Shown: positions 33,464-48,413 of the stretch, piece after piece
How positions within the stretch are numbered: position 1 is the first letter of the stretch
Layout of the letters: the number at the start of each line of letters is the position of its first letter
Assembly: GCA_025062245.1 (NCBI GenBank)
Contig: JANXAD010000012.1
Coordinates: forward strand, 1-48,413
Direction of reading: 5' to 3'
From: Thermodesulfobacteriaceae bacterium
GTDB taxonomy: Bacteria > Desulfobacterota > Thermodesulfobacteria > Thermodesulfobacteriales > Thermodesulfobacteriaceae
DNA: 48,413 bases
The notes under the pieces: model-generated
The model's database searches: none
Seen by the model: only the letters and a program-made list of their open reading frames with translations
What the model was told of the DNA's origin: nothing
Position numbers and translations under genes: made by a program

Positions 33464-34912
33464 TCATTTTTTCCAAAAGGCAGGAAAAAAAAGTAGAATT
33501 ACGGTATAATATTCTAATCTGCCTATCAACATACACAAAATAAGGGTCCATTTGCCTAAGGGATGGATAAAGGAAAAATTTCCGGTGGGTCCTGCTTCTC
33601 CAAAAGCTGGTCCCACATTATTTAAAGTAGTAGCTACGGTAGAAAAGGCTGTAAGGGGATCTAACCCGGTGCTTGCTAAAATAAGGGTAGCTATAAAGGC
33701 TACTAAATTTAAAAGAAAAATAAATCCCCAAATACTTCCCAAGATACTTTCAGAAACCACATTTCCGTTTAATTTAATAGAAATAACTGCTTTAGGATGA
33801 AGGAGTTGATAAAGTTCTTTATAAAGGTATTTAAAAACCAGTATTATTCTAACCATTTTTATACCACCTGCGGTAGACCCTATCATACCTCCAAAAAACA
33901 TACTAAAGAGGAGTAGGACCTGAGAGACATAGGGCCATTGTAAATAGTCCTCTGTTCCATAGCCTGTAGTGGTAATGATGGAAATTATTTGAAAACCAGA
34001 GACTCTAAAGGCCTTTTCCCAATTAAGAGCATGAAAAAATTTCAAAAAAAGGGTATTAAGGATAATAAAGCTTATAATTAATAAAAGATAAACCCTAAGC
34101 TCGGTGTTTTTCTTAAGTTTAGAAAAGTCTTTTTTTATAATGTAATAGTAAATAGTGAAATTAGTTCCTCCCATTAACATCCCAAGACACACTACATATT
34201 CTAACCAGGGCTTCTTAAAGTGCCCAATACTTTCATTTTTTGTAGAAAAGCCTCCGGTAGAAATAGTAGTAAAGGTATGACAAATAGCATCAAATAAACT
34301 CATTCCAGAGATTAGGTAAGCTAAGACTAAAAAAATAGTAATCCCTATATAGATTTTCCAAAGTAATTTAGCGGTATCGATAATTCTTGGCTTTAATTTA
34401 TCTGGAGTAATTTCAGGAACTTCGGCTTTAAAAAGTTGCATACCTCCAGAACCTAACCAGGGAAGAATAGCTAAAACAAAAACTACTATCCCTAAACCAC
34501 CTATCCATTGAGTTAAGGCTCTCCAAAATAGAATAGAGGAAGGTAAATTTTCTACTTGAGTGAAAACACTTGAACCTGTGGTAGTAAAACCTGACATAGC
34601 CTCAAAATAGGCATCTGTAAAACTTTTTAAAACTCCGCTCCAAAGATAGGTAAGACTTCCAAAAAAAGCTACTACTATCCAAGTAAGAGTTACTACCAAA
34701 AAGGCTTCCCTTCTTCCTATATCTTCTTTTTTAGCTTTTTTAGTTAGAAAATAACCTAAGATTCCTATCCACAAGGTTAAAATCCAAACCTTTAAAAAGG
34801 TGTAAAAAGGCTTTTCTTGAAAAAGAATAGAAACTATAAGGGGTAAAATTAAAAAGAAAGAAAAAAGGATTAAGTTTAAACTGACTAAGTGAAGAACAAA
34901 AAGGAGATTCAT
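33464..34912 (-). CDS. trkH: Trk potassium uptake membrane subunit
   Basis: 482 residues with about ten hydrophobic segments and four pore-loop repeats: SGFTTTGSSV (about 105), TISTGGFSTKN, ITTTGYGTEDY and TTLNNVGPAFG, each with the conserved filter Gly. This arrangement defines TrkH/KtrB channels that import potassium under control of a TrkA/KtrA gating ring. The start ATG overlaps the trkA stop by 4 nt, so the two subunits are translationally coupled. The C-terminus GRLEYYTVILLFFPAFWKK matches the TrkH 'GRLE' tail. Identification is secure. Confidence 0.95.
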   Translation of the reverse strand: MNLLFVLHLVSLNLILFSFFLILPLIVSILFQEKPFYTFLKVWILTLWIGILGYFLTKKAKKEDIGRREAFLVVTLTWIVVAFFGSLTYLWSGVLKSFTDAYFEAMSGFTTTGSSVFTQVENLPSSILFWRALTQWIGGLGIVVFVLAILPWLGSGGMQLFKAEVPEITPDKLKPRIIDTAKLLWKIYIGITIFLVLAYLISGMSLFDAICHTFTTISTGGFSTKNESIGHFKKPWLEYVVCLGMLMGGTNFTIYYYIIKKDFSKLKKNTELRVYLLLIISFIILNTLFLKFFHALNWEKAFRVSGFQIISIITTTGYGTEDYLQWPYVSQVLLLFSMFFGGMIGSTAGGIKMVRIILVFKYLYKELYQLLHPKAVISIKLNGNVVSESILGSIWGFIFLLNLVAFIATLILASTGLDPLTAFSTVATTLNNVGPAFGEAGPTGNFSFIHPLGKWTLILCMLIGRLEYYTVILLFFPAFWKK

Positions 34913-36249
34913 TTAAGAAGCTTTTCCAAATCCTTTATGGCTCTACTTAAAACAAACATGATTATTCGGTCCTTAGCTTGCAAAATATCCTTCCCCTTAG
35001 GAATAATTATCTCTTCACCTCTTTTAATAATTCCTACTAAAGAGCCCTTAGGAAATTTAATTTCTTCTAAGGTTTTATTAATTAAAGAAGAGCGATAATT
35101 TAATTCAATTTCCATGATTTCAGCTTTATGGTCAGCAATAGCAGTAAGAGAAAGAATTTCTCCCTTGCGAATATACCTTAGAATAAGGCTAGCTGTTAAA
35201 AGACGAGGATTTAGAACCGACTCTATTCCTAAATGGTGGGCTAAGGGAAGGTATTCACTTTTATTTACTATAGCAATTACCCTTCTTACTCCTAATCTTT
35301 TAGCTAAAAGACAGGCCATGATGTTAAGTTCTTCATTATCTGAAACTGCTACAAAGGCATCCATATCTCTTATATTTTCTTGGAGAAGAAGTTCTTTATC
35401 TGTTCCATCTCCACAAAGAATTAGGGATTTTTTTAAGTGTTGAGATAAAAACTGACATCTTTCAGGTTTTTTTTCTATTATTTTAACTCTCATTTTATCT
35501 TCAATAAAGGAAGCTACATAATACCCTACCCTACCTCCACCCATTATCATAACATTTTTAGTGGTTATTTCAGAAACTCCAAGAATTCGGGCCACCTCCT
35601 CCACATTATCTCTTAACACTGGAAGATAAATTAAATCTCCTTCTTCTAAATGATTGTCTCCCCTCGGAACAATTACCTGCTCATCTCTTACTATAAATCC
35701 AATAATAAATCTATTTCTAAAATAGGAACTCAAATCTCTCAATTTTTCTCCAATTAAAAAACTTTTGGAGGGAATTTTATAAGCTAAGATTAAAATTTTA
35801 CCTCTTTCAAATTCTATAACTTCAGAGGCAAAGGGTATTTCTAAAAGTCTAACGATAGCATGGGCAACTTCAAGTTCAGGATTAATAGCTGGATCTATGT
35901 CTAAGTATTCTTTACTTAAAAGTACTTTATTAAAAAAGTAATCTGGATTTCTAATACGGGCTATTCTTCTTTTTATATTAAACATAGCCTTAGCTAAGAG
36001 ACAAGCTATCATGTTAGTTTCGTCGCTATTGGTTACTGCTAAAAGAAGATCGGCTGTGTCTGCCTCTGCAGCCTTTAAAACTTGGGGATCTCCTCCTTCT
36101 CCATGAACGACAGCTACATCAAGCTCTTCTACTAATTCTCTAAGTTTGTTTTCATCTTTATCAATAATTACTACTTCTACACCTTCCAAGGTTAAATACT
36201 TAGCTACTTGATATCCAACCTGCCCTGCTCCTATTATTATTGCTCTCAT
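34909..36249 (-). CDS. trkA: Trk potassium uptake regulatory subunit with tandem RCK domains
   Basis: 446 residues from the ATG at 36249, giving the usual start MRAIIIGAGQVGYQVAKYL; a TTG two codons upstream is less likely. Two RCK repeats are seen: Rossmann motifs GAGQVGYQVAKYL (8-20) and GGGRVGYYVASF (about 232-243), each followed by an acidic residue after the second strand (VVIIDKDE; VKIIEKKPE) for NAD(H) binding and by a TrkA-C domain. It gates TrkH in response to nucleotides. No strong Shine-Dalgarno precedes the start. First gene of trkA-trkH. Confidence 0.94.
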   Translation of the reverse strand: MRAIIIGAGQVGYQVAKYLTLEGVEVVIIDKDENKLRELVEELDVAVVHGEGGDPQVLKAAEADTADLLLAVTNSDETNMIACLLAKAMFNIKRRIARIRNPDYFFNKVLLSKEYLDIDPAINPELEVAHAIVRLLEIPFASEVIEFERGKILILAYKIPSKSFLIGEKLRDLSSYFRNRFIIGFIVRDEQVIVPRGDNHLEEGDLIYLPVLRDNVEEVARILGVSEITTKNVMIMGGGRVGYYVASFIEDKMRVKIIEKKPERCQFLSQHLKKSLILCGDGTDKELLLQENIRDMDAFVAVSDNEELNIMACLLAKRLGVRRVIAIVNKSEYLPLAHHLGIESVLNPRLLTASLILRYIRKGEILSLTAIADHKAEIMEIELNYRSSLINKTLEEIKFPKGSLVGIIKRGEEIIIPKGKDILQAKDRIIMFVLSRAIKDLEKLLK

Positions 36250-43390: not shown

Positions 43391-43873
43391 ATGAGAAAAG
43401 GAATTTTTATTTTAATGATATTAGTAGTTTTTTTATCAGGCTTTAAAAATGAAGTTACTGCTTTTGATTTTTCTTTTTATACTTACGATGGAAAAAAATA
43501 TTCTCTTTCTAATTTTAGAAACAAATTTTTACTAATAAACTTTTTCACCAGTTATTGTCAACCCTGCATTCTGGAATTAAAGGTTTTGAAACAAATTAAC
43601 GAACGTTGTGGTGATAAAAACATGCAAATTATTTCCTTTATGATAGATAAAGAAGGAATTCCTCTGCTTTCTAAGATTGTTTCCTCAAGAGGTTTAAACT
43701 ACTTGATAGGATTGGCAGACTCCCAAGTACTCAAAAATTTTCCAGATTTATCTACCACACCTACTACCTACTTGATAGATAAAACGGGACAGAGATTAGA
43801 AAAGTTAGTAGGATATAAGAATTATAATGGTTTCTTAGAGATTCTTAATAAATATCAAATTTGTAAAAATTAA
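43391..43873 (+). CDS. TlpA/ResA-like periplasmic thioredoxin
   Basis: 160 residues with a signal peptide (1-24, hydrophobic 4-17). The thioredoxin fold shows FTSYCQPCILELKVLKQI with a CxxC active site (Cys57 and Cys60 region) and the cis-Pro loop STTPTTYLIDKTGQ. The Tyr-Cys-Gln-Pro-Cys active site fits extracytoplasmic reductases used in cytochrome c maturation or peroxide/disulfide handling. No Shine-Dalgarno is visible before the ATG. It ends tail to tail with selD, sharing 4 nt. A role with c-type cytochromes is an inference. Confidence 0.85.
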   Translation: MRKGIFILMILVVFLSGFKNEVTAFDFSFYTYDGKKYSLSNFRNKFLLINFFTSYCQPCILELKVLKQINERCGDKNMQIISFMIDKEGIPLLSKIVSSRGLNYLIGLADSQVLKNFPDLSTTPTTYLIDKTGQRLEKLVGYKNYNGFLEILNKYQICKN

Positions 43874-44919
43874 GGTAATACCTCTATATAAGGTTCTCCT
43901 TCTTTAACTTCTCCGATTAAATTTATAGAAAGACCTCTTTCTTTAGCTTTTTCTTCAAAAAGAATTCTTTTTTCTTGAGGAACGGATATCAAAAAACCTC
44001 CAGAAGTTTGAGCATCAGCTAAGATGAAAAGATCTTCTTCTGACACTTGAGGATTAATTTTTAAAAGATTTTTGCAAAAATTAAGGTTATAATAGTCTCC
44101 TTCTGGGATAATTCCCATCCTTATAAATTCTTTGGCTTCTTTAAAATAGGGAACCTTTGAAGCATAAAGAAGTATAGTTTTTTTGCTGGCTAAAGCCATC
44201 TCTAAAGCATGCCCTAAAAGGCCAAAGCCTGTAATATCGGTTGCTCCTTTAAGTTCTAACTCTAACATTACTTCAGAGACTCTATTATTAAGTTCCGTCA
44301 TAATAGAAATCATTTGTTGATATACTTCAGATTGAGGCTGAATAAGCTTAGCTTTATAAGCTGTAAGAAGTATTCCTAAACCTAAGGGTTTGGTTAGATA
44401 AAGGAGATCTCCTGCTTTAGCTCCTTTATTAGTAATAATTTTATTTGGGTGAGCTATTCCGATTACTGCCAGTCCGTATTTAGGCTCTGGGTCATCCACA
44501 CTATGTCCACCTACAAGTAAAGCTCCAGCTTCTTTTATCTTAGAATAGCCTCCTTTTAAAATTTCTTTAAGGATTTCCTTAGAAAATCCTTTTTTTGGAA
44601 AGGAAATTAAATTTAAAGCTAAAAGAGGTTTGGCTCCACTTACATAAAGATCTGAAAGGGAATTAGCTACAGCAATTTGGCCAAAAACAAAGGGGTCATC
44701 TACTATTGGAGTAAAAAAGTCAACACTAAAGACTAAGGCTATCTCTGGAGTAAGTCTGTAGATAGCAGCATCAGCACCTTCTTCAAATCCTTGAAGAAGG
44801 TCAGGATGGGTTGGAACTTCAAGTTCCTTTAAAATCTCCACAAGAAACTCTTGTGGAAGTTTTGAAGCTCAACCTGCTGCCCTTACCATTTGGGTTAAAC
44901 TAATTTCTGGCACACTCAC
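43870..44919 (-). CDS. selD: Selenide, water dikinase (selenophosphate synthetase), selenocysteine-containing
   Basis: Read from GTG 44919 through TGA 44871-44869 as selenocysteine, the protein has 349 residues, the normal SelD length. It activates selenide with ATP to selenophosphate, the Se donor for selenocysteine and selenouridine. The N-terminus reads TQMVRAAGUASKLP: U17 occupies the catalytic Cys/Sec position, followed by the essential Lys20. ADAAIYRL, SVDFFTPIVDDPFVFG, ANSLSDLYVSGAKPL and GGHSVDDPEPKYGLAV are family motifs for ATP/metal binding. Starting at ATG 44841 would delete 26 residues including the catalytic site. GGGAG lies 6 nt before the GTG, which is inside the end of the mog gene (20-nt overlap), so it is coupled to it. 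A hairpin follows the TGA. The catalytic codon, start and hairpin agree; incorporation is not yet shown experimentally. Confidence 0.95.
44838..44856 (-). promoter_or_regulatory. Bacterial SECIS hairpin within selD
   Basis: On the minus strand CCACAAG (44856-44850), loop AGTTT and CTTGTGG (44844-44838) form a perfect 7-bp stem, extendable by U-A and U-G pairs. It begins 12 nt after the TGA, the spacing expected for a bacterial SECIS, and the small apical loop contains GU as SelB-binding loops do. It overlaps the codons after U17. Confidence 0.85.
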
Positions 44920-45391
44920 TTGAATCTCCCTTTATTTTAGAAACAGCGTGTTTGATAATTTCTATTAAGTAGGGAAAAATTTCTTCTATAGCTTTAGGAC
45001 TTCCTGGAAGGTTGATAATTAGGGTTTGTCCACGAATACCTGAAACTCCACGAGATAGCGCTGCAAAGGGAGTAGAAGGATAACTTATAAATCTTATATA
45101 CTCAGAAATCCCTGGAATCTCTTTTTCCAAGATTTCTTTAGTGGCCTCTGGAGTTACATCTCGAGGATAAACTCCTGTCCCTCCTGTAGTAATAATAACC
45201 TCAAGATGCTCTTTATCACACCAAGTAATTAAGGTATTTATAATTTCTTCTTTTTCATCAGGAATCACCTGATATCTTTTTAAAACCCATCCTAGTTTTT
45301 CTATACTTTCTTTAAGAATCTTTCCAGAAAGATCTTCCCTTTCGCCCTTACTTCCTCTATCACTTATAGTTAATATTCCTACTCTAATCAT
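44900..45391 (-). CDS. mog: MogA/MoaB-family molybdopterin biosynthesis protein
   Basis: 163 residues. The family adenylylates molybdopterin (MogA) before molybdate insertion. Motifs: ILTISDRGSKGEREDLSG (6-23), VIITTGGTGVYPRDVTPEAT (65-84) with the catalytic Asp-containing TGGTG loop, and LIINLPGSPKAIEEIF. TGGTG and RDVTPEAT support a molybdopterin-binding enzyme; MogA and MoaB cannot be separated by eye. It overlaps the EF-G-like gene by 4 nt and selD by 20 nt, so Mo cofactor and Se supply are cotranscribed, as needed for selenocysteine formate dehydrogenases. Confidence 0.88.
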   Translation of the reverse strand: MIRVGILTISDRGSKGEREDLSGKILKESIEKLGWVLKRYQVIPDEKEEIINTLITWCDKEHLEVIITTGGTGVYPRDVTPEATKEILEKEIPGISEYIRFISYPSTPFAALSRGVSGIRGQTLIINLPGSPKAIEEIFPYLIEIIKHAVSKIKGDSSECARN

Positions 45392-47982: not shown

Positions 47983-48413
47983 TTAGCAAACCTCTACTCT
48001 ATTTTTACCTCTACTTTTGGCTTTATATAAAGCTTGGTCAGCTAAATTTATAAGCTCCTCTAAATTAGCTTCAGGATGCAAAGAAAGAGAAGTTACCCCA
48101 AAACTGGCTGTTATTTTAAGATTCTCTAAAGTAAGTTCTTCTATAGCCTTTCTAATTTCTTCTGCTCTTTTTGAAGCATTCTCCACATTACAATAACTCA
48201 AAATAATAAGAAACTCTTCCCCTCCATATCTTATAAGAAAATCCCCTGGTCTAATTTTCTGAGAAAGTAAATAACCCATTTTTTTTAATACAAAATCACC
48301 TACAATGTGCCCATGTTGGTCATTAATAGTTTTAAAATTGTCTATGTCAACCATAATGAAACTTAAGTCAAATCCGTGTTTCTTAGCCTTCTCAAATTCC
48401 TTTAAAACAAATT
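47983..48413 (-). CDS. GGDEF-domain diguanylate cyclase (partial; N-terminus beyond right edge)
   Basis: The frame is open at base 48413 and ends at 47983, giving about 143 residues. An ATG at 48354 is internal to the domain: the upstream residues FVLKEFEKAKKHGFDLSFIMVDIDNFKTINDQ belong to the GGDEF fold. Substrate motifs FKTINDQHGHIVGD and the active site RYGGEEFLII are intact, so GTP to cyclic di-GMP synthesis is expected. RPGD sits five residues before GGEEF, matching the RxxD inhibitory site for product feedback. The sensor domain, if any, lies beyond the right edge. Confidence 0.92.
   Translation of the reverse strand, partial: FVLKEFEKAKKHGFDLSFIMVDIDNFKTINDQHGHIVGDFVLKKMGYLLSQKIRPGDFLIRYGGEEFLIILSYCNVENASKRAEEIRKAIEELTLENLKITASFGVTSLSLHPEANLEELINLADQALYKAKSRGKNRVEVC

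Follow-up and report, generated by a model that had tools for sequence, protein, structure and literature searches.

The window analysed here, a stretch of 48,413 nucleotides from a Thermodesulfobacteriaceae bacterium, carries on its minus strand a selD gene whose standard-code ORF lacks the active-site residue of the family, which raises the question of whether an in-frame TGA further upstream is read as selenocysteine (Sec). We addressed this question by computation, through the reading frame, its homology, the conservation of the UGA, the covariation of a hairpin, the machinery genes and the TGA-bearing genes of other selenoprotein families. The gene is almost certainly selD, encoding selenophosphate synthetase (selenide, water dikinase) in its Sec-containing form, with UGA-17 decoded as Sec. 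The features of the locus are as follows.

43870..44919, minus strand: full selD frame, 349 aa with Sec at residue 17 (TIGR00476 match and translation)
43870..44841, minus strand: standard-code ORF of selD, 323 aa from GTG 44841 (ORF list)
44917..44919, minus strand: GTG start codon of selD (18 of 28 family genes have a start codon here)
44926..44930, minus strand: GGGAG, a Shine-Dalgarno-like site 6 bases 5' of the GTG (sequence)
44869..44871, minus strand: TGA predicted to be read as Sec, residue 17, in AAG-U-ASKLP (translation and alignment of relatives)
44836..44858, minus strand: SECIS-like hairpin just 3' of the UGA, 10 pairs with a GUU loop (predicted fold and covariation of nine pairs)
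44900..45391, minus strand: moaB/mogA-like gene of molybdenum cofactor synthesis (TIGR00177, 131.5 bits, cut-off 85.35; PF00994)

The reading frame and its identity as selD

The frame runs from GTG 44919-44917 to TAA 43872-43870 and is free of stops except for one TGA at codon 17 (44871-44869). The original prediction had traced this frame through the TGA to the GTG with GGGAG 6 nt before it, and its coordinates were confirmed, whereas the apparent start at 44841, which it had given as an ATG, is actually a GTG. It was right that a conventional call omits the catalytic residue, as the standard-code ORF is without the first 26 residues of the frame. The situation is peculiar to selD among the tested window ORFs: no other has a TGA as the first in-frame stop on its upstream side and, beyond that TGA, a start codon. 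The test covered 37 of the 38 listed ORFs of at least 100 aa (the antisense ORF 35114-35443 was excluded), and for the ORF at 47983-48354 the frame ran to the window end without an upstream stop. At the other end of selD, a thioredoxin-like gene on the plus strand (43391-43873) converges with it, and the two overlap by four bases (43870-43873). Elsewhere in the window, a TrkH-like gene (33464-34912, minus strand) ends in a TGA after which the frame stays open for 45 more codons; the ORF before this TGA already matches PF02386 over profile positions 9-497 of 502.

The 349-residue product matches the selD profile TIGR00476 with 343.5 bits (cut-off 125) over positions 2-310 of 311, that is, across nearly the whole profile. 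It aligns with the 2yye/2zod chain over residues 6-339 (E 7.9e-70) and with 3u0o over residues 5-339 (E 2.8e-63); we take these solved SelD proteins to be those of Aquifex aeolicus (2yye/2zod) and Escherichia coli (3u0o). The original prediction had placed the TGA at the catalytic Cys/Sec position of the family, and U17 indeed aligns with the Cys of G-C-A-A-K in 2yye, a protein that has Cys rather than Sec. The predicted Sec is followed three residues on by a Lys (G-U17-A-S-K20), an arrangement that mirrors what we take to be the active-site residues of E. coli SelD, Cys17 and Lys20.

The selD start and its overlap with moaB

At the place of GTG 44919, 18 of the 28 selD genes of the family have a start codon (17 GTG, 1 ATG). 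A second in-frame GTG lies two codons further (44913); since this place is occupied by GCT, GCG or GCA in six of those 18 genes, 44919 is favoured as the start. Eight more distant family genes (L120 to L127) have the second GTG only, and two others (L117 and L119) show an insertion or shift, yet every start seen in the family lies 5' of the TGA. Ten codons lie between the moaB overlap and the TGA; there, the 28 genes differ pairwise by 0.152 at first, 0.146 at second and 0.571 at third codon positions, which is a coding pattern of substitution.

The moaB/mogA-like gene lies directly upstream of selD, and its last 20 bases (44900-44919) overlap the selD start. A tblastn match to moaB, with 53 to 100% identity, was found at all 28 family selD loci and also at L129, which holds only a selD remnant. 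In 26 of the 28 genes, 31 bases separate the moaB stop from the TGA, which corresponds to the same 20-base overlap with the place of GTG 44919; of the other two, L117 has its moaB end 67 bases before the TGA, and L110 has a selD remnant between moaB and selD. Among 80 loci from named genomes, the best 80 of at least 532 relatives, moaB matches stand beside selD in all seven family loci, whereas none adjoins selD at E 1e-5 in the 73 non-family loci; the sole non-family match at this threshold (L079) is weak and lies 1.5 kb or more from selD. This search covered flanks of up to 5 kb, some of which end at contig ends, and it could miss more distant MoaB proteins. A literature search on selD, moaB and selenocysteine yielded no title on the overlap of these genes.

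The arrangement suggests that selD may be translationally coupled to moaB, and it could link the supply of molybdenum cofactor with that of selenium, both of which would be needed by a Sec-containing formate dehydrogenase. Compatible with a Sec-containing SelD is also the idea that UGA-17 acts as a selenium-sensing switch, with translation stopping at codon 17 when selenium is low and continuing when selenium is available; the UGA comes very early in the frame, and early termination could alter coupling in the 26 of 28 genes where selD overlaps moaB, but any gene with a Sec codon shares such a property to some degree, and we consider such a switch rather unlikely. The fuller scheme, in which a conserved moaB-selD coupling ties molybdenum cofactor to selenium-donor supply for a selenium- and molybdenum- or tungsten-dependent formate dehydrogenase, with the early UGA as a selenium-sensing checkpoint, is likewise rather unlikely.

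Conservation of the TGA

A Sec-containing SelD predicts that relatives carry either TGA or a Cys codon at this position. Alignment with Sec- and Cys-type SelD proteins, which had been proposed as a check, placed U17 at the Cys/Sec position, with TGA in 59 and TGC or TGT in 21 of the loci from named genomes (best 80 of at least 532 relatives). Within the family, a selD of full or nearly full length is present in 28 of 30 genomes, and every one of these genes has TGA at the same codon; one of them (L023) lies on a contig that bears the title Thermodesulfobacterium hveragerdense DSM 12571. The two sets overlap by seven genes, L020 to L026 of the 80 named loci. In the two remaining genomes the selD search matched only distant paralogues (G005, 72% complete) or a selD remnant near a contig end (G016, 82% complete), and because both genomes are incomplete and the remnant lies near a contig end, loss of selD cannot be claimed.

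Two relatives have a selD remnant adjoining moaB (L024:3221-3388 in G014 and L129:1432-1614 in G016) in which the start and the UGA are preserved (KASG or QGSG, UGA, AAKLPQ), roughly residues 24 to 249 are missing and stops occur further on. Over the 300 bases that surround the UGA, the two are 89% alike; roughly half of this stretch lies upstream and is mostly moaB. In G014 a nearly full-length TGA-type selD starts about 250 bases beyond the remnant, while in G016 the contig ends 225 bases past the remnant UGA. This looks like a selD that was duplicated in tandem and whose first copy has since decayed.

A SECIS-like hairpin follows the UGA

Folding of the 62 nt that start at the UGA gives -20 kcal/mol (z -2.78), a value matched by 3 of 200 shuffled sequences; a 72-base stretch gives a similar result (z -2.76, 2/200), whereas a 60-base stretch beginning 9 bases 5' of the UGA reaches only z -1.57 (16/200). 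No Rfam family matched in the window at gathering scores, so the case for the hairpin is built on fold and covariation.

Covariation was scored for nine of the ten pairs in an alignment of the 28 family genes, which reduce to 26 distinct rows. The nine pairs are paired in 91.0% of cells, as compared to 40.2 to 55.1% in six slid versions of the structure. The covariation score of 0.326 was reached by none of 500 shuffles (mean 0.131). Four pairs have changed on both sides, a number equalled by 14 of the 500 shuffles, and there are eight further pair types, which 2 of 500 shuffles reach and of which the version slid by -2 has nine. The outermost of the nine pairs is unpaired in 9 of 26 rows, and RNAalifold alone recovers the inner six pairs.

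In the best covarying pair, the wobble base of codon 22 (Pro) faces the second base of codon 27. Among the 28 genes the combinations are CCA with Val (11), CCG with Ala (13), CCT with Glu (1) and CCG with Val (1, a G-U pair), and the pair is broken in two genes (CCC and CCG, each with Glu). As the 28 relatives are kin, these are not 28 independent cases; on a tree built without the hairpin region, the pair state has changed at least eight times, with at least six changes per side. A silent base therefore varies in step with an amino acid, a behaviour that a hairpin constraint predicts and that selection on the protein alone does not readily explain. The compensatory changes are as expected of a bacterial SECIS element lying directly 3' of the UGA, to which SelB would putatively bind.

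These observations bear on the possibility that the enzyme is a Cys-type SelD and that sequencing or assembly has turned a TGC or TGT into TGA. The gene lies on one contig of an 89-contig assembly, and a single wrong base would suffice, but the TGA stands in all 28 full-length or nearly full-length selD genes from the 30 family genomes, which makes such a slip very unlikely, and it is followed by a conserved hairpin; the chance that the codon is an artefact seems to us close to nil.

Sec machinery and other candidate selenoprotein genes

A Sec-containing SelD would also call for the machinery of Sec insertion in the same genome (1.63 Mb in 89 contigs, 93% complete), and a search for selA, selB and tRNA-Sec, as the original prediction had advised, found all three. 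SelA and SelB score 606.4 and 378.5 bits, respectively, and tRNA-Sec gave one strong match (85.4 bits, E 1.8e-18) with the anticodon TCA according to ARAGORN. Of the 13 weaker matches to RF01852, the seven checked with ARAGORN are Ser, Leu and Gly tRNAs. Across the 30 family genomes, selB was found in 28 and tRNA-Sec in 25; the five genomes in which tRNA-Sec was missed are 64, 82, 86, 89 and 90% complete, and in four of them the scoring covered only 98 of the candidates. Neither tRNA-Sec nor selB was found in the 64% complete genome (G008), yet a TGA-type selD is present there. A search with TIGR03167 (E up to 0.001) found no selenouridine gene mnmH/ybbB in the bacterium's own, 93% complete genome, which leaves the Sec trait as the sole selenium use shown.

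Other selenoproteins had been expected in this genome, and at least three further candidates emerged when it was searched with PF00384, PF07992, PF02662 and PF00374. Each has one in-frame TGA, at what we take to be the usual Sec place of its family. The first is fdhA on contig C88 (TIGR01553, 1428.3 bits, cut-off 814.2; RI-U-HSPTVA, residue 166), the second an HdrA-like gene (C7:22284; CSI-U-ILAPKM) whose best NCBIfam match, HdrA2, scores 994.6 bits, under the cut-off of 1100, and the third an FlpD/MvhD gene (C7:25238; PF02662, 155.5 bits, cut-off 22.3; CHW-U-AYT). As good a hairpin after the UGA arose in 1 of 300 single-base shuffles for fdhA and in 7 of 300 for the HdrA-like gene, while the flpD UGA has no outstanding hairpin (87/300). 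A hydrogenase-like gene has no TGA within its two PF00374 stretches. On sequence grounds, the expectation was thus borne out by fdhA, hdrA-like and flpD.

The TGA-bearing HdrA-like gene, with two HdrA-like halves, and the TGA-bearing FlpD gene share a cluster (L149, G000:C7:20500-28500) with a carbon-monoxide-dehydrogenase-like gene (PF03063, 373.6 bits; TIGR01702, 408.3 bits, under the cut-off of 478), another FlpD-like ORF and a gene for an Fe-S protein.

That translation truly starts at GTG 44841, or that a nonsense mutation has broken the gene, leaving a 323-residue protein without the active-site residue, is the outcome of a mechanical ORF call, but it is scarcely credible in view of the coding-type substitutions 5' of the TGA, the start codon place kept in 18 of 28 genes together with a Shine-Dalgarno-like site, the Sec machinery in the genome and a frame without any other stop.

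Discussion

The interpretation of this gene as a Sec-containing SelD is supported. The sequence of events that we propose, drawing on established knowledge of these families for Sec insertion, SelB binding and enzyme activity, is that translation of selD would start at GTG 44919, within the 3' end of moaB, and that the ribosome would then encounter the UGA at codon 17. The hairpin just 3' of it would recruit SelB with Sec-tRNA-Sec, and Sec would be inserted where other SelD proteins have Cys. The resulting enzyme would make selenophosphate from selenide and ATP, which SelA could use to produce more Sec-tRNA-Sec.

Compared with Cys-type SelD, represented by the 21 genes among the best 80 of at least 532 relatives, the family and the position are alike, and TGC or TGT replaces TGA. 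With bacterial Sec-SelD (TIGR00476) our gene has in common homology along nearly its entire length, a predicted Sec at the Cys/Sec position, a hairpin after the UGA and the co-occurrence of FdhA, HdrA and FrhD/FlpD selenoprotein genes, and we found no difference at the protein level. The position of its start within moaB, by contrast, is local to the Thermodesulfobacteriaceae. Tables 1 and 3 of PMC1794560 list Sec-SelD for several deltaproteobacteria and clostridia; a passage of Table 1 begins with FdhA (103), SelD (38), FrhD (19) and HdrA (16), and passages in PMC1794560 and PMC9312934 place Sec-SelD among the commonest bacterial selenoproteins. The selD described here is an ordinary further case of this long-known and widespread family; a literature search combining the phylum or genus with selenocysteine found no title on this gene.

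The finding is mainly a matter of annotation, since a key selenium enzyme loses its active-site residue when its ORF is called in the standard way. For the biology of the group, it means that the Sec trait, as judged from sequence, is present in most genomes of this Thermodesulfobacteriota family.
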